Origin: Styela clava
Taxonomy: Eukaryota; Chordata; Ascidiacea; Stolidobranchia; Styelidae
Length of the DNA: 64,000 nucleotides
Assembly: GCF_964204865.1 (NCBI RefSeq)
Contig: NC_135258.1
Span: forward strand, 6,625,001 to 6,689,000
Direction of reading: 5' to 3'
The notes beneath the pieces were generated by a model. It was given only the letters and a program-made list of their open reading frames with translations, did no database searches and was not told the origin of the DNA. Every line of letters starts with the position of its first letter. Within the stretch, counting starts at the first letter, position 1. The translations under genes were made by a program, and so were the position numbers. Shown piece after piece: positions 10,479 to 51,263 of this stretch.

Positions 10479-13400
10479 TTAATGAATTGAGTTCAGGGTG
10501 AGTTCCGCAAATTTTTTGACATTTTTATCCACGTAGAGATTTTGTTTCAGTTCCAGAAGATAGTCGATACCTTGCTCTTTGATCAGCATTTCTTGGTATG
10601 TTTCAGCTGAAATAATATTATGTTATAAATAAACAAGAGAGCTATGCTCAAATATATGAACACGTAGCGCCACCTAATGGCAATAATTTTGATGACGTCA
10701 TAGCAACAAAAAAAAGTAATAGCATTCTGGAATTTTTTTCTATCTTAAATCACTAAAAATTTCAAAGCAATTGGTCCAGTAATCAAAGAGAAAAGCGATT
10801 TCTTCAAAACGTGTCAAAGAACAAGAACAACAAAACGATCGTTATGTCCACTACGTGTCCAATAAAATACTCGTTGACGAAACGCACACATTGTGACAAA
10901 TATGGATAATGTAAATACTGTACACTGTGTACATGGTACAATAAAGCAACGACGCACATTTAAAACTTCACGAACAGATGAAAAAAGCCTTCACTTACAT
11001 GAATACGTACAACACTTCCATATGGTCCAAACAGCAAATAATTGAAGTGGTGGCGCGTCGTATCTTTGAAGAAGTAGATAGAAAGGCTTGAATGTTTTAA
11101 AACGGATATGAAAACATATATTTGATTCCATTTGACCCCATTTCGCCAAGCAGTCATACTACAGAAAAATAACACAACTTAATCGGGGCATTTTATCTTT
11201 TTGTAATCTTTTCATTTTAAGACAATGAGCATGGCATCTTATGTCGAATACAGACAAAAAATTAATAAATCAGGCAAATCTTGTTTTTTGTTTGCTAAAT
11301 ATTTACTAAAATAATTTACCACATTTGTCAGTGCCGTATTCCTTAGGTTAAGCGACTTTGTGAGTTTTTCCCATTCCTTGAAGTCGATTGTTAGCAAACG
11401 CGATATGACTGCAGCGGAAAGATAGCTGATCTGCCGATAAAAAATTTACATTGCTGGGGTGAAGTTTTTAGTCAGGAACATGAACAGGAACAAAATATTT
11501 ATTAATATGTGGAGCAAGCTGTATTTCAGCTTTAAATGTGACGTGATAATATAATTTGAATGCTAATATAAGCAATGATTTACTCACATGCATTTCACTT
11601 GAATTCATCAATTTTAGTACACACTCGACTGCCCCGCAGTTGTCGTCCAAAAAGTGGTAGCATATTTCTGGTACATCCGTCAAATTGCTCTAAATCAATT
11701 ACGCTGAATAGCTTTTATCATGTCAATCAACTTATTTCAGATATTGGAAATAAATAATTTAAACAACTTAGAAATATATATTTTTTAATATCACAATGAT
11801 TACGCCATCAGATAAATTAGAAAAAACAACGCGAGGATTCGTGAGGCAAGACCAGATACCCATAATAAATATATGTTGTTAGGATCCAGATCGTTAGAGA
11901 GTAGATTAAAATTTAATGCATTACCAAAATTATTAGCACTGGTTTAATTGATCTGAAATCGCTATCCTGTAAAAACAAGACGAGAAGTAAATAAAGTACA
12001 GCACTCGGATTTAACAAATAAAAATCTAGGATCGAATGACGCGGTGAAATTTCAAATTCGATCGAATTCTCATCGGCAAAACCAACATACCGTATATTTT
12101 AAAGGGCCAAGATGTCAAATTTATCTGCAAAAGCTCTGTTGTATCGGTTTTGTTGCTTAAATTCAAAGAATTCTGGCAATATTTCACAAATGAATATATG
12201 TTGTATAATTGTCGGTGATTTATTAAAATGTAACATCCTGAAAATGTGTTGCAATTCAAATCTACACATTTTTATAACTTGACTCAGATTTTCAAAAAAC
12301 GGAATTTAGTTGACTCGACATGACCAATTTGGTTTTTAATTCGATACTCTTACTCTTACTTACTTTTTTCAGTAATTGTAGTTATTATACCTCGTATCAT
12401 TTTACATTGGTTGAGAGTTGAGACATACCTCAAGCAATTCAACAAAAATTGTTAGCCCTCCTGCATTAACAATATTTGTACATGTTGAGGGTATTCCAGC
12501 TGTTAGGTTCTCCAAAAATGACAGCAAATTATAAAAAGTAGCATCTCGGAGCCTGGCGTTCACTTTCCCCCTCAGCATCGATAAGAGATTCTAGATAAAA
12601 AGAATTATTCATTCCAACAAAATTCTGTGTTGCTGTAATTATTATATTCTAATAAAACACATAAAAACAATCAGAGTATACATTTATCATTAATATATTT
12701 CAGTCAGTTTTATGTTCAACAATATATTTTTATGGAAAAAAGTCATATTTGATTATCGAAATAGTAGACGAATTGTATATTAATTGTTATATTAAAAAAA
12801 AATCAATAAAACTTTGTTATCTGGCAAGTCGCACTGTGACTAAGACAAAGGATTAAGTATATACTTAATTGAATGATAACCTAAATAAACAACATTTCTC
12901 ATTTTATTGCTGACATAGAAAAAAGGGCGCTCCAAAAGTGTGTGTACCGATATGGAGGTACCGGTAACTAATTTTGTTCGCCTACTTTACATCAAGTTGT
13001 GTAAAGGGAGGAAGCCTATGGGCAGGGGTGTATTTACTTGTCTACCACAATCTCCGAACTCGTAATAGAACTAAAATAGGGAAATCTGGATAAAATTATG
13101 GCCTAACCCTAACATGGTACATACACTACGGGAGTACCGAAACAAGTTTATAATTGAAACAAATATTATAATTGAAAAGATTAACATTTTATCTATTATT
13201 CAGATAAGTTTTCTAAATAACAATATACCTCCACATATTTTCTGTTTCCGATAGTGGCGTTATCTGATAGTGACAGATTTATTGCTATATTAGTTAGAAA
13301 CTCCACAAACTTCGATTCTATTTCCAAATTTTCATTTGTAGTTAGAATTGTCATCAGCAGGTGTGCTAAGTTCAAGTAATTGGAGCACTAGAAAAGAAAA

Positions 13401-16290
13401 TAGCTACAGGGCTCGGTAATCGCCGAATCGGATTAAAATAAACATTATTAATTTACGGATATCACAGATATCATGGCATTAAAATATATTTTGGCAGACC
13501 CGCAATTATTGATTCAAAGATTAACCAATATACCTAACAAAAAATGGATATACACTTCAGCTATCACAATTTCTACGTTTCGTATGTTTGAGACGCTTTG
13601 AAATTTATGTTGCAACAAAAGTTTTAAATATTCCAGTGATCAACACACAAAACTATAAAACAGACTAAAAAAAATTCTCTGTGACACGATACAATGAAAA
13701 AGCCTGTGGGTATAAAAAGATATTTTCTCAAAGGCAAGCCATGGGGCCGATGTAGATATATACATCTTACCGATTTATTCCTCAAAGCGGGTAAAGTCAA
13801 TACTGCCAGACAAGTCAGCAATACCTCGGAAGAGAGTTTATCGTCTTTGAAGGCTTCTATAGTTTTTATAAGTTCAGTAGCAACCTAACAAAAATAAATA
13901 TTTTAGTCTAGAATAAATTCACCTGCTGTCTCAGCAACAAATAATATTGTTCGTTATCATTTCAACTATCATAACCAACCATGTTAGCATTAAATGGAAA
14001 GGGCGCATTTCCTTGAAATCAATTGGGATGTTTTCAACAGCGCATATAAGCGAAATGGTCATCGTTGTGCTCCCTATGTTCCCTTAAAACGCGCAATTGA
14101 TGATCCTTAAATGCATCTGTTCACATAAATTTTTTAGAAAACCATCGATAAAAGGTCTCGAAAAATCATATGCAATGAGGACACAGCATTCGCGCTATTT
14201 GATTATCTACAATCTACATGGTATTTTCTATTCCGCGTCGACAGGCCTGCTATTTTAATATATGGTAAGTTCTTTGCAAGGTCACAGGACGTCATGGATT
14301 GCATACATTAGATTAAGATTAAGGCCATCATCAATGTACAATAAAGCTCGATCTTCAAAAACTCAAGTATCATTACTTCGGAAAGCAAATGCACTGTCAC
14401 TCTTTCACCCCCAGCTGAAATTAATTGCATCACAAACTTTGTGGCTGTAATTTGAATTGAGCGACTTGTGTCGCTTGGTATTCTGTAGTATTGAATGCAA
14501 TTGAGCGCCGCCTAAAAAATACGATCACAATATGAAATTATAAAATCAAATTGTATTGTATTAAATCTTGTAATTATCTTGCAAGATCAATGAAAATGTA
14601 GCTGTGATAATTTCCTAATCCCTACTCTTTTTCAAACGACCCGATTATTCGTGACCCAAGGATATGCGTAAATACTAAGACGGCATGCAGTGCTTTAATG
14701 GTCGCATAATTAAATTACTAATATAAAACAATCATTTCCACATAATATTTATTTTACCAGAAATTACTTCAAAGTGAGGAACCTTGACAAACGTTCTTTT
14801 AGTTACAGACATGATACGTACGCTGATCAACCAAGTAGATTTGATAGTAAGTTGAATTAAAAAAAACACTTCAAGAAACTAAATTATTTTGAAACATAAT
14901 AATCGTTTTTGAAAACTATCCCAAACCTCAATTTCTTCTAAGTTGAACTTTTTCACCCTCAAAACTTTTTCAGTAAGTTTTGACAAATAGTCTTTTGCTT
15001 TGTCAGAGTCACGAAATTTTTCTTTGAACAGATCCGAAAGATTTCCATCAGTGACCTAGATATAAAAACATCAAGTTTATATTGTAGAAACAATTTGGTT
15101 GTTTTATATTCATCTAAAAAATGGAATGTTATATTGACTAGATTAAAGCTAGTAAGTAGTATCAACGGTGTTAAAAATAGAAAGACATTAACAAAAAACA
15201 CATAAACGATATCTGTTCTTGAACGTTCTCGACCGATATAGTTTTCTTTATATCTGAATAATTATTTAACCAAATAATAATTATTTTGTAGATATATCCT
15301 TTTGCAAATCTATTTGTTCAGTGCCATATTTGAAAGGAAAAAAAAAACGGGTTATTACTCACACATTATCTTTATCTTTCTTAGGTGATAACCCTCTAGT
15401 GTCCAGTAGCTGAATAAGAACGAAACTTCTGGAAAGTTCATCAACACGTATAGAGAATTGTTTACGACAACTTGGACAATGTATTCTGCAATAAAATGTT
15501 ATTATTAGTGAATTCTATAAATATTTCCCTGTCAGACTGTTGATATCCATATGTTAAAGATAATGACCTGAACGAGAATAATCAACGATACTACACAACG
15601 ATATTTATTTTAATCGATGCAAGATATTTGAACCGCTCCCAAATAGGCTTGGGGTACCATGAGTGAACTTGTAGGACCTAACCTAACGTTTACTTGGTAA
15701 AATGCTCTTTCAAAATTACCATGAAAGTGGACTCAGGAAAAGGCTAATCTAAATTAAATAAAACTTTGCGTCGGCTTCACAAAATGAGAAAAAAAATCTT
15801 TTGCAATAAAATGTATGGTAATTTAGGATCTGGAAAAAGACATTTTGCAGGGTAATGTATCTCTAATGCATCGCAAAATACAGTCAGACAATTAGATTTC
15901 AATTAGAAGTTTGGCAAAACAAATTTAGTGCTTGAATAAAGCTCGGACCTATTCTGGTCTGAATCAATGAAGCTTATATACCCATTGTTCCATCATCACA
16001 AACCATAGCGTTACTTATTCCGGATATAAATGAGCTATAACATATTATAGCCCAATATTTGAATATGTATATTGATAACATTTGTTAACGGAAAAAGTCT
16101 ATCATCACAAACCATATAATAAACAAAAATACCTTCCGTCTCTGGAAATTTTTTCCAAACATTCAACGCAAAAGGAATGTTGACATGGCAGCATTTTGGG
16201 TGTCTGGGGTCCGGATTCTTGATACGACTCCATACACACCGAACATTGAAGTAAATTTTCAACAACGCCATCGCCACTATTGGATGCCAT
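10479..16290 (-). CDS. Gene B: RING finger plus ZYG11-like armadillo protein (506 aa)
   Basis: Twelve exons on the minus strand: 16290-16133, 15485-15365, 15055-14927, 14511-14377, 13884-13771, 13387-13229, 12590-12429, 11966-11925, 11689-11588, 11430-11320, 11158-10999, 10606-10479. All introns are GT-AG, all phases join, and there is no internal stop. Exons 1-2 encode a C3HC4 RING finger (Cys16, Cys19, Cys36, His38, Cys41, Cys44, Cys56, Cys59; motif LPCQHSFCVECL then CPSC). Residues about 137-506 resemble the ZYG11/ZER1 armadillo region; FYLLLQRYDAPPLQLFAVW corresponds to FFPLLGCFTTPGVQLWAVW of human ZYG11B (recalled). Exon 8 is a 42-nt micro-exon. Inferred role: E3 ubiquitin ligase in which one chain supplies both the E2-binding and substrate-binding parts. 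Odd: NLTAGIPSTC replaces the LTDETPSTC of D, E and A. There is no leucine-rich or VHL-box region, unlike true ZYG11. Confidence 0.87.
10629..10870. repeat. R1 repeat in intron 11 of gene B
   Basis: This short copy begins CAAGAGAGCTATGCTCAAATATATG and ends AACGATCGTTATGTCC...ACGTGTCC. The matching introns of genes C, D and E lack it, so it inserted in unit B after duplication. Confidence 0.65.
12926..13138. mobile_element. R3 MITE in intron 6 of gene B
   Basis: The 213-bp element begins GGCGCTCC and ends GGAGTACC. It is flanked by 8-bp repeats gaaaaaag (12918-12925) and gaaacaag (13139-13146) with one mismatch. Gene C shows the empty site at the same intron position (near 22887, GATATAGAAACAAG). 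The central CCTAACCCTAACATGG is shared with other R3 copies. Confidence 0.85.
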
Positions 16291-18105: not shown

Positions 18106-18142
<37 letters not shown>

Positions 18143-20030: not shown

Positions 20031-20049
20031 TTACCTTTAATTAGATAAA

Positions 20050-20887: not shown

Positions 20888-23800
20888 TTAGTGAATGAAG
20901 TTCAGGGTGAATACGGCAAAATTTTTGACATTTTCATCCACGTAGAGATTTTGTTTCAGTTCCAGAAGATGGTCGATACCTTGCTCTTCGATCAGCATTT
21001 CTTTGTAAGTTTCCGCTGAAAATTGTTATGTCATATATATATATATAAATATCCATTGTGGAAACCCACACATTGTGGCAAATGTAGGCTAATAATGTAA
21101 ATAGAGTACAAAGTACAATAAATTACCAATGCAGATTTAAAACTTCAAAAAAAAAAAACCTGCCTTTACGTGAATCCGAACAGCACTTTGATATGGTCCA
21201 AACAGCAAATAATTGGAGTGGTGGCGCGTCGTATCTTTGAAGAAGTGGATAGAAAGGCTTGAATGATACGAAGTTGATTTCGTCACATATATCTGATGCC
21301 CTTTGAACCCATTCCAGCACGCAATTATACTGCAGAAACAGATTTATCGTGATATTTTATCTTTTGTATGATATATGATTTTGTATGAAATTTCAAGACG
21401 AAGAAAACAATTAGCATGACACTTCATGTCGAATAAGGTAAATACATAAACCAGGCAATACTGGCATTATTTGCTACCTAATTATTAGAAAAATTTACCA
21501 CATTTATCAGTGCTGTATTCCTTAGGTTAGGCCACTTCGTGAGTTTTTCCCATTCTTTGAAGTCGATTGTTAGCAAACGCGATATGACTCCAGCGGAAAG
21601 ATAGCTGATCTGCCAAATAAAAATTCGCATTGCTGGGGTGAAGTATTTAGTTCAGGAACATAAACAATTATTAGTATTTTAAGCAAGCTGTATTTTAGTC
21701 TTAAATGTGATGTGACAATATAATTTGAATGTTATAAGCAATAATTTACTCACATGTATTTCATCTGAATTCATAAGTTTTAGTAGACACTCGACTGCCC
21801 CAGAGTTGCCGTCCAAGAAGTGATAGCATATTTCTGGTACATCCGTCAAATTGCTCTAAATCAATTACGCTGTGTAGGTTTTACTTTGTTAATCGCCATG
21901 TTTTAGATATTGCTTGAAATAAACTATCTAAACAACCTAGGTAGCTACGATATATTTCCTCAATTTTACACTGATTAGCCTATCCGATAAACTAAGAAAC
22001 TCAACGAAATGATCCGTCAGGTCAAATACACACTTTATATGTGGTAAGGATAAAGATTGTTAGAAAGTAGAATAACGTTCAGTGCATTACCAAATTCATC
22101 AGCACTCTTTTATTTGATACGGGATCGTTATCCTGTAAAAACAAGACACAAGCTGTTAATATAGTACACAACTCGGAACAATCCAGGATCGAATGACATG
22201 GCAAAATTTCGAATTCTCAACGACAAAACTAGCAAATAGTTTAACAGGCCAAGCTGTCAAATTTATCGGCAATTGTCGGTGATTTATCAAAATATAACAT
22301 TCTGAAGATGTGTTCGAAATTTACTTTTTGATTCGTTATCTTCTCTTTCAGTCATTGTAGATAATATACCCCATACCATTTGGCATAAAATGAGACATAC
22401 CTCAAGCAACTGAGCAAAAACTGTTATCCCTCCTGCATTAACAATATTTGTACATGTTGAAGGAGTTTCAGCTGTTAGGTACGCCAGCAATGACAGCAAA
22501 TTATAAAAAATGGCATCTCGGGACCTGGTGTTCATTTTCCTCCTCAGCATCGATAAGAGATTCTAGATGAAAAGTTGTTTATTTCAACAAAGTTCTGTGT
22601 TGATGTAATTATTAATATTCTGATAAAACACTTAAAAGACAATCAGAGTATACATTTATCATTAATATGTTTCAGAGTCAGTTTTATGTTCAACAATATA
22701 TTTTTATGAGAATATTTGATTATCGAAATAGTAGACGAATTGTATATTAATTGTTATAATATAAAAATATCATTGAAATTTTGGAATCTGGCAAGTCGCC
22801 ATATGACTAACGACAATGGAATAAATATATACATACCCTAATTAAATGATAGTTTAAATAAAGAACCATTGCTCAATTTATTGCTGATATAGAAACAAGT
22901 TTATAATTGGAAAAAGTATTATAATTGAAAATATTACAATTTTATCTAACATTCACACAAGTTTTCTAAATTACAATAAACCTCCACATATTTTTTGTTT
23001 CCGATACTTGCAATATCTGATTGTGACAGTTTTCTTGCTGATATATTAGTTAGAAATTCCACAAACTTCGATTCTAATTCATTTTTATTCGTAGTTAGAA
23101 TTGTCATCAGCAGGTGGGCTAAGTTCAGGTAATTGAAGAACTGGAAAAGAAAATATCTACAATGGTCGGTAATCGCCGAATCGAATATTAATTTGTCAGA
23201 TATCACAGATAGCATGGCAAAAAATGAAATATATATTTTGACAGTCCCGCACTTATTGTTTTTAAAGATTAACCGATATAACTCAGGAATAAAACAACTG
23301 ATATATACTTCAGCTATCACATATTCTAGTGAGTTTTTGTATGGTTGAGCCCTTTTACGTTTATGTTGCATCAAACACTTTGAATCAGGGGCCGACCTAC
23401 GGCCCGTGGAGTAATATAATTCGTCCCAGGACGCTTCACTGAATTATAGTAACAAAACAGCTGTTTTGACGATTATATTCCTTACGTAACAGAATGTATT
23501 GTGAGACACGTGTAGACTAAATTATATTATAATCTAACGGTTATATAATTCACAATTACTCGTTAAATAAGCCTATAATTTAATTATAATTAGACAAATG
23601 GCGACAAAACGCAGAGGAGTTGATGCTGAGTGCAGAGGGTTCAAAGGCGCAGAAAATATTCAAATGGAATTTCTCGAGATGCAATGCAAGGAGGAAACAA
23701 ATCTATATTTTATTCGAGGGATGTATCACTGCTTGATTTTTATCATAAAAAGTATCTTCTTCATAGAAAACTTTATCCAAATTTGACAAACCGTGCGAAG

Positions 23801-26800
23801 AAATTCACATTCATGTTTTGAAGTACATATGCATGCTAACAAATATTTTCAAAAAGCAACATTAGAAAGAACAAGCTGAGAACTGAAATTAGTGATTCGC
23901 ATTCATGAAGTGTTCTAATCTTGGCTTTACTAGTGTCCCATTTAGAAAAGCGTGATGCAACAAAAGGGTCACATTAAATGTCATTTTAATTTTTCTTTTC
24001 TAGTAAAACGACTAAGTTGAGTTCACGAGTTGGCGCACTATTCGCGCGCTGCTTCAAATTTAACTTCTGATCTGCGTAACAAAATGTGATTCATCGGCCA
24101 TGCGTTCGGTTTTTTTGACCTTATAAAAATATGTGCGGCCCGCCAATGACTTGCAACCCTTTATTTTGGCCAGCAAAATGCTTCGCCGATCAACACACAA
24201 ATCTGTAAAATAGATTTATTAAAACCTTTATGTATATGACGAGGCATAATAAAAAAAACGTGGGTATAAAAAAACGATTTTCCCAAATACATCTTACCGA
24301 TTTATTCTCCATAGCGGGTAAAGCCAAAACTGCCATACAAGTCAGCAATACCTCAGAAGAAAATTCATCATCTTTAAATGTCTCTATAGTTTTTATCAGT
24401 TCAGTAGCAACCTGTATCAAAAGATTTTTTAACTACTATATACTACTATAAAATTAGCTGCTGCTGCAGAACAAGCAATGTTGTTCGTTATCATTTCAAC
24501 AATCATATCATTTTAACCAACCATATTTAACATTATATAAAAAAGAGGGTTATTTTCTTGAAAATGAATGGGGGTGTTTACGAGAGCGCACAAATGCGAT
24601 AATAACTTGAAAACTGTGATCTTTAAGCTCCACATGTTCCCTTGAAACGCGCAATCAATGATCCTTAGACGTCAATTAATCAGCATGTGAGAGAATGAAG
24701 TACGACGTCATGGTTCACTTACATTAAGGTATGTTTATTAGATTGGCGACCTTGCTTTGTAAAAAAAAAAAAAAGTACAGTTGGGCTCAATCTCCAAACA
24801 CCTAAGTATAAATACCTCAGAAAGCAAATGTACTGTCACTCCTTCACCTCCAACTGAAATCGAATTCATCACAAACTTCGTGGCGGTAATTTGAATTGAG
24901 CGACTTGTGTCGCTTGGTATTCTGTAGTATTGAATGCAACTGAGCGCTGCCTAAAACATATGATTAAAATATGAAATTATTAAATCTAATTGTATTGAAG
25001 TAAATTTTGCAACATCAATGCAAATGTAGTTCCTTAATCCCTACCTTTTTTTCGAACGCCCTACTTTTTTAAAAACTGTAATATAAAATCTTGCGACCCG
25101 AGAATATGCGCAAATACTGGACAACATGTAGTGCTTTGATGGCCGCAAAATTAATTTAATAATACAAAAAATTCATTTTCACATAATATTTAATTCTACC
25201 AGATATTACTCCAAAGCGAGAAAGCTGGTCTTGTTTACCCACGGCGTGTTTTCGAAATCCTGCACGGCGTGGCTTTACTTTCAGCAAAATATTGGCTGCC
25301 ATATTTTTACCAGACGACACTCTCCACAAATATAATTCCTTCTGAGCAACAATCTCGTACCGAATACAGAATAAACTATTCAAAAACCCACAGCTTTTAG
25401 GTTTTTGCTTTGAAAACAAACGATCCAGGAGAATTTCCAGTCGACGCATAGGTTAGACAACATTTTACTAAGACTCTTAGAGCATAAGGCGACCTGGCGA
25501 CGAATTACCATAATTACCTCATGGAGTAGCTATTCACAGCCCATTCATTCAATTACCGATCTAAGCAAGGCGAGCTTGTTTTTTCAGATCAAATCGTAAT
25601 AAAGTTTAAAACGTGATCGAATTCTTTGAAAAATATTCCAAACCTCAATTTCTTCCGACTTGAACATTTCTACCCTCAATATTTTTTCAGTAAGTTTCGA
25701 CAAATACTCTTTTGCTTTGTCGGAGTCACGAAATTTTTCTTTGAGCAGATTCGAAAGATTTGCATCAGTTACCTAAATATAAAAGCATCACCTTACATCC
25801 TAAATAAAAAAAATCTAGATTTTTATATTGTAGAAATTGTCGTTTAGTAGTTGAGTATTTATTTGAAAAATCAAATGTTAATTATCGAATCATATAGGTT
25901 AGACTAAAGATAGTCAAATTTTAGTAAGATAGTAAAAACTTTACCAAACAACACCTTAACAGTATCTGTTTCTGAGAGTCCTCGACCGAGTTAGTTTTCT
26001 TTAGATCTTGATTAATTTTTCATTTTACAGATCGTTTTATTTTGCGAAACGTTCAGTGTCATATTTGTAAAGAAAATAAAAGGGTCAATACTCTTACATT
26101 ATCATTTCTGGGTGACGACCCTCTAGTGTCCAGTAGCTGAATAAGAACGAGACTTCTGGAAAGTTCATCAACAGGTATAGAGAATTGTTTACGACAACTT
26201 GGACACTGTATTCTGAAAATAAAGTGTTAATATCGGCGAGTTCTACAAATATTCCCCAGTCAGACTGTTGATATCGATATGTTAAAGGTAGTGACGTAAA
26301 CGAGAGTAAACTTTTTGAGAATAAACGAAGAAAAGCAAAATTAGAATTTAATGCTTGGTGCAAACGATTAATAATTTAAGTTTTTATAGAAAAAAATCAT
26401 AATGAACGACGTAAAACTTGATATTTATCTAACGGTTACATGGTGAAATGTTCTTTTGAAATTACCATAAAAGTACACGCAAGAAGTGCATAATCTAAAT
26501 TAAATATAACTTGCGTCGAAGATACAAAATAAGAAAAATCTTTTGCAATAAAATGTACATTAATTTGGGATCTGAAAAAGACACTTTGAAGGTTAATGCG
26601 CTTTGTATTTACACGCAAAATACAATCAGACAATTAGAATTAAAAAAAAATTAAATTAATTAGTAGTTTTAATTAGTGACATCTTTTAGCACGAGATATA
26701 AATATGTATATTGATAACGTTTGATATATCAAACGAAAAAGGCCCATTATCACAATCGATATAATAAACAAAATTACCTTCCCGCTCTGAAAATATTTTT

Positions 26801-26935
26801 CAAACAGTCTACGCAAAATGAATGCTGGCACGGCAGCATTTTAGGTGTCCGGGGTCCGGATTCTTCATATGACTCCATGCACACCGCACATTGAAGTAAA
26901 TTTTCAACAACGCCATCGCCACTATTCGATGCCAT
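20888..26935 (-). CDS. Gene C: RING finger plus ZYG11-like armadillo protein (504 aa)
   Basis: Twelve exons on the minus strand: 26935-26778, 26212-26098, 25772-25644, 24950-24816, 24411-24298, 23140-22982, 22562-22401, 22132-22091, 21855-21754, 21609-21499, 21329-21170, 21015-20888. Phases join and there is no internal stop. RING residues are as in gene B (LPCQHSFCVDCL; CPSC). The armadillo part keeps FYPLLQRYDAPPLQLFAVW and ends in TLNFIH. Exon 2 is six bases shorter than in B. Pocket-region motifs are LTAETPSTC (exon 7) and SNLTDVPEICYHFL (exon 9), both of the B type. Exon 1 (CLKNIFRAGR) and exon 3 (MF near the end) instead resemble gene E. Intron 5 holds an 800-bp hAT derivative. Inferred role as for B: a single-chain E3 ligase with a ZYG11-type substrate domain. 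Confidence 0.87.
23386..24189 (+). mobile_element. Deleted ZBED/GTF2IRD2-type hAT copy 2, in intron 5 of gene C
   Basis: It begins CAGGGGCCGACCTACGGCCC and carries the start of a BED-type transposase (MATKRRGVDAECRGF, plus strand near 23598), followed by a short frame with ...YPNLTNRAKKF that fits the end of a BED finger. The core of the transposase is gone. The right end is degraded (GCTTCGCCGAT). The paralogous introns of B, D and E have no such insert. Confidence 0.7.
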
Positions 26936-35000: not shown

Positions 35001-38000
35001 CCAGTTGTCGTGGCACCCAATACTATTTTAAGACCTACCTCGAGCAGTTCAGCGAAAATTCTTAGCCCCCCTGCATTAACAATATTGGTGCATGTTGAGG
35101 GAGTTTCATCTGTTAGGCTCGTCAACAGTGCCAGCAGATTATAAAACGTTGCGTCTCGTGAACTGGTGTTCGTTTTCTTCCTCAAAATTGATAACAGATT
35201 CTAGATAGAAGTAATTTATTCCAACAAAGTTCTACGTTGATGCAATCATTATATTCTAATGAAACGCACAAAATACAATCAGAGTATATTTTTATCTTTA
35301 TTATATTTTAGTCAGTTTCATAGTAATGAACATAGTCGGAATACTTAACGTTTTAGCAAACATTTAAACAAATTTTTAAAAAACCAATTTACCTCCACAT
35401 ATTTTCTGTTTCCGATAATAGCGTTATCTGATCGAGACAGTTTTCTTGGTATGTTAGTTAGAAATTCCACAAACTTTCTTTCTATTCCCGAATTTTGATT
35501 TGTAGTCAAAATTGTCATCAGCAGATGAGCTAAATCCAGGTTACTGAAGCTCTAAACACAAAAATAGCTGGAAAGCCCGTAATCACCGAATCACATTAAT
35601 CTGAACATTATTAGTTTGTGCGATAACACAGGGACCATCAAAATAAAATCGATTTTGACAGAATTGGTGTTCCAAAGATTAATTGATGTTACTAAATAAT
35701 AAAACAAAGGATATACACTTCAACTGTCACATATTTACGCGTATTTTTTATGTTTGAGACGCCTTTAAGTTTAGGTTGCAAGTTGCAACAAACGTTTCAA
35801 ATATTCTAGCGATCACTACACAAAACTGCAGAATAGATTAGAAAAATTGTGCTTGACACGGTACAATAAAAAAGAAAGCCATGGGACCAACGTGAATATA
35901 TTACATCTTACCGATTTATTCATCATAGCGGGTAAAGCCAAAACTGCCAGGCATAAGAGCAATACCTCGGAAGAGAGTTTATCGTCGTTGAAGACTCCCA
36001 TAGTTTTTATCAGCTCAGTAGCAACCTATCAAAAGTGAATTTTTAGGACTAAGATAAAATTAACTGCTGTTTCAGCAAACTTGGTATGCAAATGCCTACA
36101 TCAATGTATAATTAAGTACGTATATTTACTTCGGAAAGCAAATGTACTGTCACTGCTCCACCGCCAAATGAAATTGAATACATCACAAACTTCGTGGCTA
36201 TAATTTGAATTGAGCGACTTTTGTCGCTTGGTATTCTGTAGTATTGAATGCAATTGAGCACCGCCTAAAAATATACAATCAAATTATTAAGTTATTGTAT
36301 TAAAGTGTATTGGATTAAATCTTAGCCAGGGTGAAACAGTGCAACTGTGCAAGCTGGCAATACATTACTATAATCATCATATGAAGTAGGTATTCACATC
36401 CCATTCACCATTATCGATCTAAGCAGGGCTTGATTATGACGATGAGAGACGTCAGGTCAGGACTGCGTCCTTATTGGACACGTTAGTGGACATAGCGATC
36501 GTTTTGTTATTATTAGCATGTTGTTGTTGTTGCTCTTTGACGCAGAATTTCATCGTTATGAAAATGTCGCTTTTCTCTTTGATTATCAGTAGAGGTGCGC
36601 GTGACTAACTCCGAATCCTTTTGCGCTGGTAGATCCGTATGCGTGTAACGACTCGTCTGACCAAAATCAGACTTCCCCAGACAAGAAGTTTTACAGTTGT
36701 ATTTTATTCCTGCTACAGCATCCTTGCATTACATGCATACGTATCCACTAGCGCAAAGTCATTGAGAAAGAATTGGGAGTTAGTCTCGCGCAACTCTACT
36801 GATAGTTATATTAGCCTTTTCCCTTGATTTCTGTATCTGAATGGATCCTGCCAACTCCGGACTCAACAAATACCACAAGGAAATAATTTATAAGCAATAT
36901 TCAAAACCCAATAGGATCGGCCTGCTCATGAATGGCTAATCTGTGTCATAATTTGGGATTATGGCTAAATTAAATGTATTTTGGGGGGTCAATAGTATTT
37001 AATAGTGATCTGCATGTGAACAAAATCAATTTCAAAACTCAAAATGTTTGAGTTTAAATTATCCATGCTTGATCCGGGTGTTCTTAATTACGTTGACGTC
37101 ATCATATTTTTTTTATGTATAATTTTTATTTTGCAACAAGGTCAATTTTATTTGTATGAGTATTTCAAAGCTTAAAAATAAACAAAGAAGCTGTTGTTAG
37201 TTGAAAACGAAGTATTTTGAACGCGCGAGCAACGTTCTCCGGCTCATAATAAACAAACAAAGATACCAGACAGCACGCGATCAAATGCTCTTCGATAAAA
37301 CGAATATCACTTCACTTACAAATCCCAGTCTTGTTTTATTTTGAAGGTGACGTAAAGCTCTTCTAAAAGAGAACTCTTTCTCTCGCATATCAATCACGTG
37401 TCGACCACAGCGTTAAAAGTGAGAAACTTTTTCTCGAAATTTTTTGAAATTTCTCTCTTCTTACCGTACAATTTGCGCTACGTAATTTGGGCGCGTTTTA
37501 GTGGAAAGCGACGAAAATAAGATTTTTAGGGACACTGATGTTTTTGGCATTTTTGGTTGTTGAAATATTAAGAAAATTATAGAGGGGTGTCAAAATGACC
37601 CAGGGACACCCGAGATCATTAGGAAGAATTGCATATTCTCTTTGATTACTGGACCAATTGCCTTGAAACTTTTAGTGGTTAAAGATGGCTTTTTTTCCTA
37701 GAAGGCTATTACTTTTATTAACTTTAAATATTCCTATGGGCTCAATGGGATTCATTACTTTTGAGGTATGACGTCAATAAAATTTGCCACCACGTGGGGA
37801 TTCCGCGAACACATATCAACGCATCACGGTTACGTGATCAAGCCTGATGGTAAGTTACCGTACCGTACCACAGTGAATTTGAGAGCTACGTGTCCATATA
37901 TTTGAGCGCAGCTCTCTTGTTTTTGCAATGATTAGGTTATGTCAATTTACATTGCGCTGTGTTTCCTGGCCTTTATTTGAGCTGATCTACATTATTCTAA

Positions 38001-39767
38001 AATCGAAAAAGGTAACATGAGTCATTGCAACTTCCTGATGTAAAGTTTCATTCGGGCTCGTGACTCACCAAACCTAGACAAGCCCACAAATATGGTTAAA
38101 CGATACAACTTCCAAGTTATATATCGACTCCTCTACCTTTGAGTCATCTCTAGAAATTAACATGATTTACGACACAGGTACACGCGGAAATAAGGTTGCC
38201 AGTTTCGAATGTAATGTACACAGAAATAATAAGCAGGGAAATATCATTGGCGTTCGCAACATGGTCACTCAATCACAATTACTACACTACTGCATGCCTC
38301 ACCAGCACCAATTGGGTACGTAATTCGCCTATGGATTGTTGACGTCGTAATGGACCTATTACAGTTGTAAATAATTATGACGTAATAAAGGTAATTTTCG
38401 TTACAAACAAGATACGTACGATGATCGAATTTGAAAACACTCCAAGAAACTAAATTATTTTAAAACATAATAATCGTAAGATTTTAGAAAAATATCCCAT
38501 GCCTCAATTTCTTCTAAGTTGAACTTTTTCACCCTCAATATTTTTTCAATAAGTTTGGATAAATACTCTTTTGCGTTGTCGGGGTCACGAAATTTTTCTT
38601 TGAGCAGAATTGAAAGATTCGCATCAGTTACCTAAATATAAAAACATCAATTTGCATTTTAGACAAGAACTAGAAACAGTTTGATTGTTGAATATTTATC
38701 TAAAAACCTATAGAAACATATTGGTTAGTAATCTAAAGATAGTAATTAGCATTAATGGTTATGTTGAAAATAGAAAGACTTTAACAAACAACACATAAAC
38801 GACATCTGTTCTTAGGCTTTCTCGACCTAGTTAGTGTTTTTGCAAAATTTTTCGTTTAGTGCCATATTTGAAAAAAATAAGCGGGTTATTAGTCGTACAT
38901 TGTTTCTTCTAGGTGATGACCCTCTGGTGTCCAATAGCTGAATAAGAACGAGACTTCTGGAAAGTTCATCAACAGATGTGGAGAATTGTTCACGACAACT
39001 TGGACACTGTATTCTGTAAATAAAGTGTTAATATCAGTGACTCAATTGAATATTTCCCAGTCAGCCTGTAGATATCCATATGTTGTAAATAGAAATCTAA
39101 ACGAGAATCTGAAGAATAAACGCAGGCAAGCAAGATCAGAAAATTTAGCCGGCAAAATAGGACCCACGGGCCGAAACCGACCCAGCGAATTGTTCATCCG
39201 GTTTGACTATAGTTTTTATGAATTTCCTATGAAAATATCGATGAAAATAACATCAAATTGACCCCGATTGTTACATTTTGCAATAAAATGGTAATTTAGG
39301 ATCTGATAAAAAAACATTTCGAAGTATAATGCATCTAGTATTTACGCACAAAATACAGTCAGACAATTAGATTTATATTAGTAGCTTGGATTAACTAATT
39401 CAGGGCTAAAATATAAACATATATACTTTGATTAAGCTCATATACTCATCATTTCAAATCATGACATTACTAATTCAGGGTTTAAATGAGCTATAGCTGT
39501 CTATGACATGTTTTAGCACGAGATATAAATATGTATATATATTCATATACGTTTGATATACCCAACGAAAAAAGTCCAATATCACAAACGATATAATATA
39601 CAAAAATACCTTCCGAATCTGGAAATAATTTCCAAACATTCAACGCAAAAAGAATGCTGGCACGGAAGCATTTTGGGTGTCTGGCGTCCGGATTCTTCAT
39701 ATGACTCCATGCACACCGCACATTGCAGTAAATTTTCAACAATGTCATCGCCACTATTCGACGCCAT
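32099..39767 (-). CDS. Gene D: RING finger plus ZYG11-like armadillo protein (508 aa)
   Basis: Twelve exons on the minus strand: 39767-39610, 39013-38899, 38631-38503, 36264-36130, 36025-35912, 35551-35393, 35200-35039, 34546-34505, 34079-33978, 32827-32717, 32549-32390, 32238-32099. Phases join without a stop. The intron 3 donor reads GAG|GCATGG, i.e. GC instead of GT; the other eleven are GT. RING: LPCQHSFCVECL and CPSCREQF. The ZYG11-like part has SLTDETPSTC and, across exons 8-9, LNNLTEVPEI, nearly the LNNIAEVQEL of human ZYG11B (recalled); Asp301, Asn340 and Glu343 would match its Gly/N-degron pocket positions. The C-terminus is four residues longer (LIHLFGK). Introns 3, 8 and 9 contain transposons. 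Probably functional if the GC donor is used; otherwise mis-spliced. Confidence 0.82.
33030..33956 (+). mobile_element. hAT element with transposase remnant, intron 9 of gene D
   Basis: Ends CCAGGGTTGGGCAACC and GGTTGCCCACCCCCG are inverted. Flanks are tataaggc (33022-33029) and tataagca (33957-33964), an 8-bp duplication with two differences. Subterminal GGCACGCGAGCC repeats occur at both sides. Inside, at about 33476-33640 (plus), are remnants of the transposase C-terminus (ENGLFRDWDDIPEKFHVL; ACESLFSVMYSIKSPNRS), the hAT dimerisation motif. At 927 bp it is a deleted copy. Confidence 0.85.
34268..34457. mobile_element. hAT-type MITE, CAGTGGTGGGATTC family, copy 2, intron 8 of gene D
   Basis: A 190-bp element starting CAGTGGTGGGATTCAGCC and ending TTTGAATCCCACCATTG, bounded by perfect gtcgagat repeats (34260-34267 and 34458-34465). 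Relative to 28768-28943 it is inverted. Confidence 0.92.
36465..37925 (-). repeat. Long R1 copy in intron 3 of gene D
   Basis: The left end TTGGACACGTTAGTGGACAT with GCGATCGTTTTGTT and the right end ACGTGTCCATATATTTGAG with CTCTCTTGTT are the inverse of the R1 ends at 46-425. Gene E intron 3 lacks it between GGTCGGAACTG (about 48070) and GTCAATTTACATT (about 48146). No transposase was recognised in the 1.45-kb interior. Its presence makes intron 3 of D unusually long. Confidence 0.6.
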
Positions 39768-41460: not shown

Positions 41461-41757
41461 CTGCTTTCACTTTTGTAAATTAAAGTGGCCCATTCAAATT
41501 ATTTTAATCATGCCAACAATTAGATACAATCAATCTTTCTCTTCGTAAATAAATATTGACAGTAATTCGATGTATAGTATATCGCCTGTGTTTTTTCTGA
41601 AGTTGATACTGACAATATTAATGATAATAAAAATCTAATATACTAATAAATAAGTCATCAAAAATTAGGAGTCAGATGAGCTTCCTTCAAGTACAACTTC
41701 TTATAATCTTGCAAACGGCAAATCAATATTTATTGAAATTCGATCGAGGTTAGGTGC

Positions 41758-43760: not shown

Positions 43761-46700
43761 TTAGTGAATCAACTTCAGGGTGAGTTCCGCAAACTTTTTG
43801 ACATTTTTATCCACGTAGAGATTTTGTTTCAGTTCAAGAAGATAGTCGATACCTTGCTCTTTGATCAGCATTTCTTGGTATATTTCAGCTGAAATATTAT
43901 TATGTCATATAAAAAATAAATGAAATAGTTGTAGAAATGCACACATAGTGACAGATATTGATATTGTAGATACTGTACAAAGTACAAGAAATCAATGAGT
44001 CACATTTAAAACTTCACAAGAAATGTGAAAAAGCCTACACTTACATGAATACGAACAAAACTTCCATATGGTCCAAACAGCAAATAGTTGAAGTGGTGGC
44101 GCGTCGTATTTTTGAAGGAGTGAATAGAATGGCTTGAATGATATGAACTTGATATGAAAACATATTAAGGATGCTTCTTGACCCCATTTCATCACGCAAT
44201 TATACTGCAGAAACAGATTTATCGTGGTATTTTATCTTTCTTAAGTTTTAAACATTAAGACAAAGAAAACAATTAACATGACATCTTGACATGTCGAATG
44301 CACGCTGAAACATTAATAAACCAGGCAATATTGGTTTATTACTTATCGATCTCGATCGGTAAGTATGTTGATAGATATTTTTCTGTCTATATATTTGACA
44401 CTTTTGTATGTTACACGATATCTCACGAAAGCGAGGTTGAATCTGCTCCAATTTTGCACCTGCATTCATCATATCGAAGCCTATTGATTTGGATGAATTA
44501 TGTCGTATAATTAGCGATTTATTAATTAGTTAGTGATGGGACACGCGGTGTCGCTATTGAGTCAGAGCGAAGGAATCAAAACCGCAGTTTTTGTTTTGGG
44601 GGATCTCCTACGTTTCGTCGCTGCGAACGATTGTAACATGCGGAAGATCGATAAGTCGGCGGTCTCCGATCGCTATCTATTTATTTAATTAATTATTTAT
44701 ATAATTTACCATATTTATCAGTGCCCTATTTCTTAGGTTAGGCGACTTCGTGAGTTTTTCCCATTCTTTGAAGTCGATTGTTAGCAAACGCGAGATGACT
44801 GCAGCGGCACAGTAGCTAATCTGTCAAATAAACAATATAATTTGTAATGCTGTAACAATATAATTTGAATGTTATAGACCAGAGGTGTGCAACATTCAAT
44901 ACAGAAGGGCCAGATAAAAATAACTGGGTGAAACCGCTCCTTTATTTAATATATAGGCTATTTAGTAGTTGCAGACACAAAAATCTTAGTTATGGATCTT
45001 GTTACACGCGTTAATTGCACGAGCTAGCTGTTAAGGCATTGTGAAGTCGTATGTATAGATAATGAATTGGACCCTGTATCAAAACTGGTTTCGCGGGCCG
45101 CGCATCGTTCAACTTTTCCGTGGGCCGCGGAATTTTTTTTGGGGGCCCCAGGTTGCACCCACCGTTCATAACCAATATTTACTCACATGCAATTCATCTG
45201 AAATCAAAAGTTTTAGTAGACAATCGACTGCACCGGAGTTGCCGTCTAAGAAGTGGTAGCATATTTCAGGTACCTCCGTCAAATTGCTCTAAATTAATTA
45301 CACTGTATAGCTTTTATCGTGGTAATCAACTTGTTTTAGATATTGCATAAAATGTACGATATACAACTAAGCAAACTAAGGTATATTTTAATGATTACCC
45401 TATCACATAAACTAATAAACACATTAAATAATTGAGATAAGATTGATAAGAGAATAAAATAATATTCAATGCATTACCAAATTAATGAGAACTTCTTTGA
45501 TAAGGTTGATGTCTTTATCCTGTACAAATAAAACGCAAGCAGTTTATAAAGTGAAACATTCAGATTAAACAAATAAAGTTATAGGATCGAATGCTACGTA
45601 TATTTCAACTAATCCAGCAATCAAACTTATCTGCCAAGGCTCTGTGTCGATTCTGTTACCTCATATCAAGATAGGGATTCTGGAAATATTTCACAAATGA
45701 ATGTTGTACAATTGTCGAAAATTTGTTGAACAAAAACATCTTGGAAATATTAAAAGTTACATTATTTGAATATGAATAAGTTTTTGAAAATACCAAGATC
45801 TTGTTGGTTTGCCATGACCAACTTATTCAGTACAGTATGTCCCCCTACTTCTTAATTTAAGGTGGGGTGTTTTTAATGATAGATCGGTAGATATTTTGTT
45901 ATGAGAGATAAAACTATTTGTAACTTATAAAAATGTGGTATGTGTTTGTCTGATCATCTTCCCCGGAATATGAGCCTCTTTTAAATATATAAATACATTT
46001 CTATTCACGTTAAGAATTAAAGTATGGCGCATACCTAAAAATTAGGGGGAGGGGGTGTTTGAAATTTTAGGGGGGTGTAGGGAAGTCACTGAACATATTA
46101 TATTCTTAACAAGATGATTTACGTACAGTATAAACTTGTTTCTTCGCTTCTACTTTCAGTAAAATTCCTAATATCCCTTTATATATAGGTAAAGTCATAC
46201 CTCAAGCAATTCGGCAAAAATTGCTAGCCCTCCTGCATTAACAATATTTGTGCATGTTGAGGGAGTTTCGTCTGTTAAGCACATTAACAATGAAAGCAGA
46301 TTATAAAACGTTGCATCTCGTAACTTCATGCTCATTTTTTTCCTCAAAATTGATAACAGATTCTAGACGAAAATTAATTATTCAAATGAAATTCATGGTT
46401 GATCAAATCATCCTATTCTAATGAAACACATAAAAAGCAATCAGAGTATATCTTTATTATATTTCAGTCAGTTTGATATTAATGAACATAAACGGAATAT
46501 TTAACATTTTAGCAAACATTTACACAGATTTAATAAAAAAATACCTTTACATATTTTCTGTTACCGATATTGGCGTTATCTGATCGAGACAGTTTTCGGG
46601 ATATGTCAGGTAGAAATTCCACAATCTTCTGTTCTAATTCCGAATTTTGATTCGTAGTTAGAATTGTCATCAGCAGATGAGCCAAATCCAGGTTATTGAA

Positions 46701-49700
46701 GCCCTAAACACAAATATCTAGAAAGCCCATAATCGCCGAATCGCATTAATCTAAACATTATTAGTTTTTGCGATAACACAGATACCATCACAATGAAATA
46801 TATTTTGACAGACTTGGTGTTCCAAAGATTAATTAGTGCTCCCGAAGTATGTGTACCAAGATGGCGCACAACCTGAACATAGTATGTGTACTAGGTTACG
46901 GTTCAGGTTGTGCGCCGATTAATTAATGTAACTAAATAATAAAACATGATATACACTTTGGCTGTCACATATTTAAGCGTATTTTTTATGTTTGAGACGC
47001 TTTTAAGTTATGTTGCAACAAACGGTTCAAATATTCCAGCTATCAATACACAAAACTGTAAAATAGATTAGAAAATTTGTGCGTGGCACGGTACAATAAA
47101 AAAGAAAGGAATGGGGCAACGCATGGGACCAGCGTGAATATAATACATCTTACCGATTTACTCATCATAGCGGGTAAAGCCAAAATTGTCAGGCATAAGA
47201 GCAATACCTCGGAAGATAGTTTATCGTCTTTGAAGGCTTCCATAGTTTTTATCAGTTCAGTAGCAACCTATCAAAAGTAAAATTTTAGGACTAAGATAAA
47301 ATTAACTGCTGTTTCAGCACACTTGCTTTAATAAAGCCCATATCAATGTATATATTCAAATAGGTATATTTACTTCGGAAAGCAAATGTACTGTCACTGC
47401 TCCACCGCCAAATGAAATTGAATACATCAGAAACTTCGTGGCTGTAATTTGAATTGAGCGGCTTCTGTCGTCGCTTGGTATTCTGTAGTATTGAATGCAA
47501 TTGAGCGCCGCCTAACGCATACAAAATATGAATTTATATTACTAAAGTGTATTGAATTAAATCTTGCAACACCAAGGAAAATATAGCCATGGTAGTTTCG
47601 TAATTCCTACTTCTTTAGGAGACTTTTTTTAAAATAATGTATCGACATGTTGTCATTCTATGGCCGCAAAATTTATTAACTAATACAAAACAATCATTTT
47701 CACATAATATTTATTCTACCGGATATTACTTCAAAGCGAGAATGCGAAATTTTAAAATCCTTGCGTGTGTTTACTTTGGGCAAAATTTATGCTGCCAAGT
47801 TTTTGCGTGGCGATACTTTCTACTGAGCAACACTCAGTAATATTTGAAAATCGATGGCTTTGAGGTTTTTGATTTAATAACAAGCAACCCAAGAGAAATT
47901 CTAGGCGACCCAGATGCGGGTCGTAACTCACAGGTTAGACCACATTTGTCATTTAAAATGGTGCAACCTGGCATTACCATAATCAACCATATGAAATAGG
48001 TATTCACATCCCAGTCACCATTACCGATCTAAGCAGGGCCGGATTATAACGATGAGTGAGAGATCTTAGGTCGGAACTGAGCAATAATTTTTGCTATGGG
48101 GGCACATCAAAAATTAAAATTCAATGGCGAGTCGGACCAAGTAAAGTCAATTTACATTACGCTGTGTTTCATTGCCTCTACTTGCGCTGACCTACATCAT
48201 TCTAAAACCAAAGAAGATAACATGAGTCATTGCAACTTCCTGATGCAAAGTGCCATTCAGGCTCGTGACTCACCAAACCTAGACAAGCCCACGAATATGG
48301 TATGGTTAAACGATGCATTATTAATTCATTTGTCCAATTCATCTGAATTTAAGACTAGAAATCTATAAGAATCGAACTAATCAACAATTGATATAGTTTA
48401 CAATACAGGTATTCAAGGAAATAAGGTTGCCAGATTTGAATGTAATATACACAAAAATGGCCCTCCAGAAGTATGTGTACCAATTTGAGGTAGCTAATTT
48501 TGTTCGCACATTTTACATCAAGTTTTGTAAAGGGACTGAAACCTATATACAGGAGATATTTAGTAGGATAACACAGACGGTCCCCAAACTCGTAATAGAC
48601 CTAAAATACCGAAAATCGGAATAAAATGATGCCCTAACCATGAAACCTAACACATACTACGGGAGTACACAAAAAATTATAACCATGGAAATATCATTGG
48701 CGTTCGCAACATGATCACTCAATCACATTCACCCTACCAGCACAAATTTCACTTCAAAATGATGTGACTTGTGTGCGCCGTATTGCATGTTCAGCGAAAG
48801 TTCGGCAACCCGGCAAAGCCCTCTCACGATCTCCTTATTTGGGGCGAGACCCACACTTTGGGAACCACTGGTCTATGATACATCGCTACCAAAACACTGA
48901 TTTTTATTACAATAATGAAGTTTACAGTTAAATAACATTTTATTTGTAAATGAAAAAAGTTTCTAATTTTAGAAATCTTCTCGCGCGCCGGATGAAACTA
49001 AAGGCTGTAATAAAACCTAACGGTAACAGAAAACCAGACGTCATAATACACGTTTGCAGTCGCGAGAGGTGGGGGAGGTATTGCTCATTTATTGATAAAG
49101 AATACATTACTGATAAATAAAATTAATTACCTTTCCATTTCTATTGATATCGATATTCTATTATCTTTCTCAAACAATGAAAGCATTTTCAGAGTAACAT
49201 TTGTTCAACTACTTTAAATTGGTTTATTTTTTAATAAAGAATTGGGATTTGCAAATTCAATGAAATTTAAACGAAAACAAAGTTTAAGTCGCATAAATTG
49301 AAAATGACTTATAATAGATAATAATCAATTGGTCAAAACTGAATGTCGAGGTCCTCAAGGCTTGAGGTCCTCAGGCTTCACTCTAATGGTAAATCGGGCG
49401 GGCCCTAGATCTATGCCAATACCGAGTCACCCTACTGATATGCATATTCGTACATATTGAGATAATTAAAAACTATGTCTATATGAAGGACGTTTGCTAT
49501 TTAGAAAAGTATAATTCCACTCCATAATTGTAAAATACATATCGGTACTATCATGCTTATGTTTTCAGATGTAATCGTAATAAATTTTGAAACATACTAA
49601 TCGTGAATTTTCCTAAAACTATTCCAAACCTCAATTTCTTCTAAGTTGAACATTTTTATCCTCAATATTTTTTCTGTAAGTTTCGACAAATACTCCTTTG

Positions 49701-51263
49701 CTTTGTCGAAGTCACGAAATTTTTCCTTGAGCAGACTTGCATCAGTTACCTGAATATAAAAACATCTATTCAAATCCTAAACCAAAAAATCTAGATTTTT
49801 ATATTGTAGAATTGACGTTTGGTTGTTGAATATTTATTTAAAAAATCAAATCTTAATTATAGTATCATATTAGTTAGACTAAAGATAGTAGGACTTCATA
49901 CAAGACTTTAACAAACAACACATAAACGATATCTGTTCCTGAAAGTTCTCGACCGAGTTAGTTTTCTTGATATCTTTCTTGAGTCTTTTTTATAGATCGT
50001 TCTTTTGTTTGCGAAACCTTTTGTTTTCCCATATTTCGAAGGAAAATAAACGAGTTATTACTCTTACATTATGTCTTCCTGGTGATGACCCTCTAGTGTC
50101 CAGTAGCTGAATAAGAACGAGACTTCTGGAAAGTTCATCAACAGGTATAGAGAATTGTTCACGACAACTTGGACAGTGTATTCTGCAAATAAAGTGTTAA
50201 TATGAGAATTTTCTTTAAATTTAAATATTTCCAGTCAGACTGTTGATATCTAAATGTTAGAGATAGTGACCCAAACGAAAGTAATAGATTAAAAAACAAA
50301 CGAAGGAAAGCGAAGTTAGAAAATGAATGTTTGGTGCAGACGACTATTTAAATCAAGTTTCATATGCAACAAACATAACACGTAACGTAGAACTTGATAT
50401 TTACGATATTTTCTTTCATCAGTTTTCATCAGTGTTTAGTTGGTCTATTACACAAAAAACAGACAATACCAATATTGAATAAATAAATTTCATTCTTAAC
50501 ACTGTTTGATACACATATTTACAAGTTACCAAAAATAAGCAGCATGTTCTTGACTAGTACTTCTTTCTTATTACTGAACCCTTATGTACCGATACTACTA
50601 TCGAAAACAAAAAAATTATAACATTTGTTGAAGGACCATGCAAAATATTTTGACCGCTCAAAAATAGGAACCATGAGTGCTCTTCAAAAATTACCATACA
50701 AGTGTACTCAGGAAACGGATAATCTAAATTAAAAAAAAGTTTGCGTCGACGATGCAAAAAAAGGTCTTTTGCAATAAAAATGTACGATGATTTCGGATCT
50801 CAAAAAAGACATTTTGAATGGTAATGCATCTTGTATTTACGCGCAAAAGACAATTAGATTTAAATTAGTATTGTGGCATAACAAATCAATGGCTTAAAAG
50901 TAACTCCGACCTATTTTGATCTGAAATGTAAACATATATTCTCTGATAAAGCTCATATGTCATTTTCCCATCATCACAAACCATAGTATTCAGGATTAAA
51001 ATGATCTATGACATAATAGTCCGAGATATAAACATGTACATTGATGACGTTAGGAAAGCCAAACAAAAAGTCCATCATCACAAACGATAATTTAATTAAA
51101 ATTACCTTCCCGCTCTGGAAATATTTTTCAAACATTGAACGCAAAATGAATGCTGACATGGCAGCATTTTGGGTGTCTGGGGTCCGGATTCTTCATATGA
51201 CTCCATACACACCGCACATTGAAGTAAATTTTCAACAACGTCATCGCCATTATTCGATGCCAT
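43761..51263 (-). CDS. Gene E: RING finger plus ZYG11-like armadillo protein (502 aa)
   Basis: Twelve exons on the minus strand: 51263-51106, 50182-50068, 49749-49630, 47511-47374, 47267-47154, 46703-46545, 46362-46201, 45519-45478, 45288-45187, 44820-44710, 44204-44045, 43888-43761. Phases join without stops. RING: LPCQHSFCVQCL; CPSCREQF. Exon 3 has lost three codons and exon 4 has gained one (PSDDRSRS), both in frame. The pocket region reads LTDETPSTC and SNLTEVPEICYHFL. An in-frame ATG at 51326 would add 21 residues, but the family start at 51263 (MASNNGDD) is preferred because the other three genes begin there. Introns 3, 5, 9 and 10 contain transposons. Inferred E3 ligase role as for the paralogues. 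Confidence 0.87.
44341..44690. mobile_element. R2 foldback-family copy in intron 10 of gene E
   Basis: Carries the R2 words CTTATCGATC...GGTAAGTATGTTGATAG, ATATCTCACGAAAGCGAGGTTGAAT, GATGGGACACGCGGTGTC and GGTCTCCGATCG. Other copies are at 51797-52958 and 55093-55662. No coding sequence was seen. Confidence 0.65.
44880..45164. mobile_element. hAT-type MITE in intron 9 of gene E
   Basis: Ends CAGAGGTGTGCAAC and GGTTGCACCCACCG are inverted. Flanks ttatagac (44872-44879) and ttcataac (45165-45172) are a decayed 8-bp duplication. GC-rich blocks GCGGGCCGCGC and GGGCCGCGG lie near the right end. It occupies the same intron position as the unrelated hAT element of gene D. Confidence 0.75.
46836..46916. 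mobile_element. R3 mini-copy in intron 5 of gene E
   Basis: About 81 bp, starting GTGCTCCCGAAGTATGTG and ending GGTTGTGCGCC. The words GGCGCACAACCTGAAC and GTTCAGGTTGTGCGCC are perfect inverse copies, giving a small hairpin. It is flanked on both sides by gattaatta. Gene D has the empty site near 35670. Confidence 0.75.
48461..48668. mobile_element. R3 MITE in intron 3 of gene E
   Basis: A copy of about 208 bp, from CCTCCAGAAGTATGTGTACC to ACATACTACGGGAGTAC, with the family core CTCGTAATAGACCTAAAATA and GCCCTAACC. Target repeats are unclear. Confidence 0.7.

Follow-up and report, generated by a model that had tools for sequence, protein, structure and literature searches.

In a 64,000-nt window of the Styela clava genome (C10:6625001-6689000 in a 376.6-Mb assembly), we found a tandem array of genes in which a RING finger is joined to armadillo (ARM) repeats of the type seen in ZYG11B, a receptor for protein N-termini. 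The array extends past the left edge of the window and comprises six RING-ARM loci, four of which are complete (genes A-D). Amino acid change among the complete copies is concentrated at the residues equivalent to the degron pocket of human ZYG11B, where omega, the ratio of nonsynonymous to synonymous substitution rates (dN/dS) in codon models, is above 1. Judging from sequence, we consider it somewhat probable that the array encodes single-chain E3 ligases that would work independently of a cullin and read N-termini through a diversified pocket.

Genes A to D and their domains

Exons were located by similarity between the copies, their edges were aligned, and four spliced models were then built from the conserved splice sites; the splicing given here is thus a prediction. 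Each model has 12 exons on the minus strand: gene A at 43761..51263 (502 aa), gene B at 32099..39767 (508 aa), gene C at 20888..26935 (504 aa) and gene D at 10479..16290 (506 aa). For gene A, whose splice sites are conserved among the copies, exons 1-6 lie at 51263-51106, 50182-50068, 49749-49630, 47511-47374, 47267-47154 and 46703-46545, and exons 7-12 at 46362-46201, 45519-45478, 45288-45187, 44820-44710, 44204-44045 and 43888-43761. The intron phases (2,0,0,0,0,0,0,0,0,0,1) are identical in A-D, all four models are free of internal stops, and length differences within exons are multiples of three. Donors are GT at 43 of 44 sites, the single GC being that of exon 3 in gene B. AATAAA or ATTAAA hexamers stand 62-325 nt past the stop codon in all four genes, and the surrounding DNA is AT-rich. 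The initial annotation had called four intact 12-exon genes here, and the rebuilt models bear this out, with outer ends at exactly the coordinates it gave. Its description of a local array holds in that the copies are arranged in tandem; the four copies are not the whole array, two more lying to the left.

The RING is encoded by exons 1-2 (A 50068..51263, B 39767-38899, C 26935-26098, D 16290-15365), with ligands 1-6 in exon 1 and the CPSC motif in exon 2. As had been claimed, all eight ligands are present in every gene; they are invariant in A-D (C16 C19 C36 H38 C41 C44 C56 C59 in A) and make up a C3HC4 RING at residues 15-60. The Pfam model zf-RING_UBOX scored above its cut-off in 4/4 copies. 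All four also read CPSCR, with an Arg right after the last zinc pair that we take to be the linchpin. For the RING with its C-terminal flank (residues 8-90), the best match among solved structures was the TRIM32 RING (E 7.3e-12), and omega was lower in the RING region (residues 1-90) than in the rest of the protein (0.35 vs 0.53, p 0.02).

The ZYG11-type ARM part is encoded by exons 4-12 (A 43761..47511, B 36264-32099, C 24950-20888, D 14511-10479). The Pfam search of the four joined models found, together with the RING, PF22964 (ZER1-like_2nd) in each copy (E 4.5e-49 in A, 1.3e-52 in B, 1.3e-48 in C and 1.4e-43 in D), and the union of the two domains that had been read from the letters was thereby recovered in 4/4 models. 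The PF22964 match spans residues 147-501 of A, which is nearly the entire Pfam model. The solved structure of human ZYG11B (residues 397-720) matched array protein residues 170-501 with an E value of 4e-47, and that of ZER1 with 4e-17; the plant ARM_PUB model matched D weakly (E 1.2e-3, 18.8 bits against a cut-off of 33). Full-length ZYG11B chains aligned with the array proteins over one stretch only, the ARM part, and therefore nothing like the VHL box plus leucine-rich repeats (LRR) of ZYG11B was detected. Consistently with the absence of a VHL-box region noted at the outset, a pattern search of A-D found no N-terminal VHL/BC box, the sole BC-box-like string of each copy sitting inside the ARM and starting at residues 444-448. 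No LRR family was among the Pfam matches of A-D; the local ZER1 gave LRR_Zer-1 at 5e-12 in a like search. The short ZYG11 signatures listed by the initial annotation all occur, each in some of the copies: FYPLLQRYDAPPLQLFAVW in B and C, and LTDETPSTC in A and B. A further one, NNLTEVPEI, had been assigned to D and was found in the rebuilt models in B only.

Pairwise identity among A-D amounts to 388-417 of 500-504 aligned residues. Pairwise dN/dS is 0.34-0.47 (Nei-Gojobori), which indicates that the proteins are constrained as a whole, and the codon-model omega for the whole protein is 0.50. The copies had been described as fast-changing paralogues; this does not apply to the whole protein and does apply to the degron pocket, which the initial annotation had not identified.

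Change and selection at the degron pocket

The degron-holding residues of human ZYG11B are reported to be W522, N523, D526, N567, E570, A647 and R649, together with an extended surface (PMC9741652, PMC13379236, PMC13201589). Two pocket sets were mapped onto the array through the alignment, one of these 7 residues and one of 15 that includes the extended surface. The equivalents of W522, N523 and D526 fall in exon 7 (A 46201..46362, B 35200-35039, C 22562-22401, D 12590-12429) and those of A647 and R649 in exon 11 (A 44045..44204, B 32549-32390, C 21329-21170, D 11158-10999). The Gly/N-degron pocket (W522 N523 D526 N567 E570) is not preserved. W522 is absent from all six copies, its equivalent being M/T/A/E in A/B/C/D and I in both of the further copies, E and F. 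Position 523 reads C/S/Y/N in A/B/C/D, S in E and R in F; position 526 reads D/D/A/A, with D in E and F, so that D526 is absent in C and D. N567 is N in A-D and F, and the E570 equivalent is E/E/D/D. At 647 the four genes carry K/S/N/R and F carries T, at 649 they carry I/R/V/K and F carries R, and residue 560 is E/G/R/P. The ordinary ZYG11 of the same genome keeps the pocket at 7/7 positions (W522 N523 D526 N567 E570 A647 R649).

Four different residues occur in A-D at 8 of 500 columns, five of which belong to the 15-residue set (522, 523, 560, 647, 649). When the sets were shifted circularly along the protein, 0/330 shifts matched the variability of the pocket for the 7-residue set and 0/330 for the 15-residue set. 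Across the six copies, 522 and 523 are the two most variable of the 54 columns of exon 7, and with F added to A-D, 5 of 267 columns differ in all five copies, among them 522, 523 and 647 (hypergeometric 1.1e-4).

Selection was estimated with a custom-written codon model, the codon models taking in the four full copies only. Omega was 2.70 for the 7-residue set versus 0.47 for the rest (p 0.0016 in a test against omega 1), and 2.33 for the 15-residue set versus 0.46 for the rest (p 0.0005 in the same test). Without sites specified beforehand, M2a was preferred over M1a (2dlnL 16.95, p 2e-4), with 3.2% of sites at omega 6.5; the highest-ranking sites correspond to K560 and R466, followed by residue 51 in the RING and by 555. 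As a control, seven EloC- or dimer-contact residues gave an omega of 0.73, with no excess over the rest (p 0.42).

Several points weigh against reading these data as a selected retuning of the pocket. The sample of four full copies is small, and copies E and F are apparently incomplete and diverged. The counts of variable versus invariant sites are modest (6/7, p 0.010; 10/15, p 0.014), and A-D share the same residue at five of the 15 positions (435, 515, 516, 567, 685). The four Gly-contact residues alone were reached by 24/330 shifts and the 12 mutagenised residues by 10/330; by omega, 1/330 shifted 7-residue sets reaches the value of the pocket itself, and 51 of the shifted sets lie above 1. 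The top M2a sites include a RING residue, 51. Gene conversion can inflate site models, and conversion or recombination is likely here, because which two copies are most alike depends on the exon: A and C in exons 1-3, B and C in exon 8, A and D in exon 12. When each exon group was given its own tree, omega fell to 1.95 for the 7-residue and 1.78 for the 15-residue set (p 0.022 and 0.013 versus 1). The loss of W522 and D526, finally, could signal that the pocket has given up N-terminus binding altogether instead of being retuned.

Further copies, relatives and surroundings

A search of the genome with PF22964 returned at least 14 matches in three regions, namely the array, C1 and C14. Copy E of the array is oriented opposite to A-D, with exon 7 at 493..654 on the plus strand and exons 1-6 to the left of the window, and its exons 1-7 follow the same order as in A-D. 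Exons 8-12 were not found downstream on the plus strand at 655-10400 (best E 0.37); copy E is therefore probably truncated and was rejected as a full gene. Copy F lies on the minus strand, left of the window beyond E; its exons 1-2, 6, 7 and 9-12 were found, and for exons 3-5 and 8 there was no convincing match (best E 0.024). Neither a pair of 10-kb stretches further left nor 10 kb to the right of the window gave an array-exon match at E 0.01. A weak relic of exon 12 is seen at 9339-9398 on the minus strand, downstream of D (E 0.004). Upstream of the genes, blocks of D (17008-17586) and B (41049-41615) are 86.6% identical, the same similarity as their exons, which would suit either conversion in the recent past or conservation of a regulatory region; the neighbouring upstream block of D, 16385-16951, is matched more weakly by DNA upstream of C and A.

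The C1 gene is an ordinary ZYG11, with ARM exons 51-63% identical to the human protein. Its exon starts coincide, as judged by eye, with those of array exons 6, 7, 9, 10, 11 and 12, from which we infer that the array obtained its ARM half by DNA-level copying of a ZYG11 gene. LRR-like open reading frames (ORFs) were recognised by eye upstream of the C1 ARM exons, and one of them matches the local ZER1 (E 0.019). The first exon of this gene contains a BC-box-like string, TLQQACINAI, at residue 10, and gave no match to solved structures with phmmer. The C14 gene is an intronless ZER1 of 880 aa in one continuous open frame (2688-5330 of the extracted stretch) with LRR_Zer-1 and ARM, whose best solved match is ZER1. 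Relatives of RING exon 1 were found on C8 (three places, 52-59% identical), on C6, in a C1 cluster and elsewhere. Those on C8 adjoin ORFs in which many membrane-spanning stretches were recognised by eye, so this RING module may have acquired more than one kind of partner; the one such C8 ORF that was tested gave no Pfam match. No relatives outside this genome were confirmed in viral and genome contig collections that hold no eukaryotes, each searched with two short peptide patterns.

Elsewhere in the window, two ORFs of 181 and 409 aa on the minus strand (4947-6756) had no Pfam match at 1e-3; they presumably represent a broken transposase of the hAT/ZBED type, a name that Pfam does not confirm. 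A tRNA cluster at 59165-63946, comprising six tRNA-Pro and two tRNA-Leu genes predicted by ARAGORN, occupies ~5 kb with repeated surroundings. On C9, Pfam detected a GH6 domain just after cellulose-synthase-like ORFs (motifs by eye); this pair points to a tunicate, a fusion gene of cellulose synthase and GH6 being, we assume, a mark of that group.

Proposed working, rival explanations and known systems

In ZYG11B, the VHL box is reported to bind EloC, the LRR to touch CUL2 and the ARM groove to hold the degron (PMC13201589, PMC13379236). The array proteins retain the reading part but have a RING where the docking parts were, and the simplest working would then be direct recruitment of an E2 and ubiquitination of the protein bound in the groove. 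The TRIM-like RING (residues about 10-90) would recruit the E2 and stand in for the VHL box and LRR, such that the predicted ligase activity would no longer require a cullin, and the ARM superhelix inherited from ZYG11 would stay the substrate receptor. Since the W522A mutant of ZYG11B is reported to be defective in binding N-terminal peptides (PMC9741652) and W522 is lost here, the canonical Gly code is unlikely in the array copies, whose pocket would no longer bear the Gly/N-degron code. After duplication, positive selection would have altered the pocket, and each copy would come to read a different N-terminus or peptide end; candidate targets for this putative end-binding are protease-made neo-N-termini, parasite proteins and polymorphic self proteins. 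Reports on ZYG11B describe action on NLRP1 ends created by proteases (PMC13379236) and against enteroviruses (PMC11998487), so that, by analogy, a surveillance role of the array would be reasonable. We tentatively extend this possible role in defence or recognition to a repertoire of N-terminus readers, in which pockets under diversifying selection would be reshuffled among copies and the set would scan the cell for particular ends, such as those from foreign proteases or polymorphic self proteins, and destroy their bearers.

The same residues could have changed through decay, if a fused ligase had lost N-terminus binding and used another ARM surface while its pocket residues drifted. The absence from all six copies of W522, whose mutation is reported to make ZYG11B binding-defective (PMC9741652), and the loss of D526 in C and D agree with this; however, pocket omega was estimated above 1 and not at 1, N567 is retained in A-D and F, position 570 is always E or D, and the remaining protein is under constraint, all of which makes decay rather unlikely in our view. 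Among the four full copies, retuning would probably explain the observed changes better than decay does. We regard it as quite improbable that the fused proteins serve as partners or competitors of CUL2 complexes, binding ZYG11 substrates or dimerising with ZYG11 and thereby modulating them. Such a role would draw on the ARM domain, through which ZYG11B is reported partly to dimerise (PMC13201589), and on the ordinary ZYG11 and ZER1 present in the same genome, but the N-terminus of the array proteins is without a BC-box-like string, most of the seven dimer- or EloC-contact residues checked are not kept, and the RING looks complete.

It is very unlikely that the array belongs to a selfish toxin-antidote system in which the fused ligases would be the antidotes that remove the toxin. 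A degradation link has been suggested for ZEEL-1 of Caenorhabditis elegans (PMC12680543), which is described as joining a new domain to a ZYG-11-like half and whose family includes a tandem array (PMC3144186), and positively selected pockets would suit changing targets. The antidote activity of ZEEL-1 is nevertheless reported to lie in its membrane domain, with no rescue by the ZYG-11-like half alone (PMC3144186), and no toxin-like partner was noticed beside the array, though no search was aimed at one. As for the exon models, the weak exon 3 donor (GAG/GTTTGG; GC in B) would allow the RING and ARM exons to be separate genes whose fusion is an artefact. Yet A-D agree in exon order, phases and orientation, and E has the same order. 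From the end of the RING exons to halfway through exon 4, A-D have no Met in common, which means that translation of the ARM exons has to begin further upstream; separate genes are extremely unlikely.

Reading protein N-termini is a conserved function of ZYG11 and ZER1. Under the single-chain ligase reading, one ZYG11 would here have become a ligase complete in itself and given rise to several copies, with divergence centred on the positions that contact the degron in human ZYG11B. The array makes two questions accessible to experiment: whether a cullin receptor can turn cullin-free when a RING takes the place of its docking domains, and what N-termini the individual pocket variants recognise. 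Its copies are natural variants of the ZYG11 pocket and could be useful for the design of degraders with chosen end-specificity. No description of a RING-ZYG11 fusion was among the matches listed in our literature search, which covered few subscription journals and preprints.

Among known systems, the ZYG11B/ZER1 receptors of CRL2 share with the array an ARM region over nearly the whole Pfam model and, in the local ZYG11, exon starts; the array proteins differ in their own RING, in the missing LRR and N-terminal VHL/BC box, and in a pocket that lacks W522 and varies from copy to copy. TRIM ligases (TRIM32, TRIM56, TRIM2) likewise have a RING with a flanking C-terminal stretch, TRIM32 being the best solved match, whereas no B-box, NHL or SPRY family was among the Pfam matches of A-D. 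Plant U-box-ARM ligases such as ARC1 are reported to combine an E2-binding domain and ARM in one chain within a multi-gene family (PMC4017152); the array proteins, in contrast, carry a zinc RING with all eight ligands instead of a U-box, and their ARM is of the ZYG11 type. The zyg-11 family of Caenorhabditis with ZEEL-1 resembles the array in its lineage-specific expansion, its tandem array and the new N-terminal domain on a ZYG-11-like half (PMC3144186). There, however, ZEEL-1 adds a six-pass membrane domain, the family is defined by the LRR region, and the available part of that report mentions no RING (PMC3144186). In most animal genomes the number of zyg-11 genes is stated to be one to two (PMC3144186). 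As far as these reports extend, the nearest relatives of the array are the Caenorhabditis zyg-11 expansion with ZEEL-1 (PMC3144186, PMC12680543) and, in working, the plant U-box-ARM ligases (PMC4017152).

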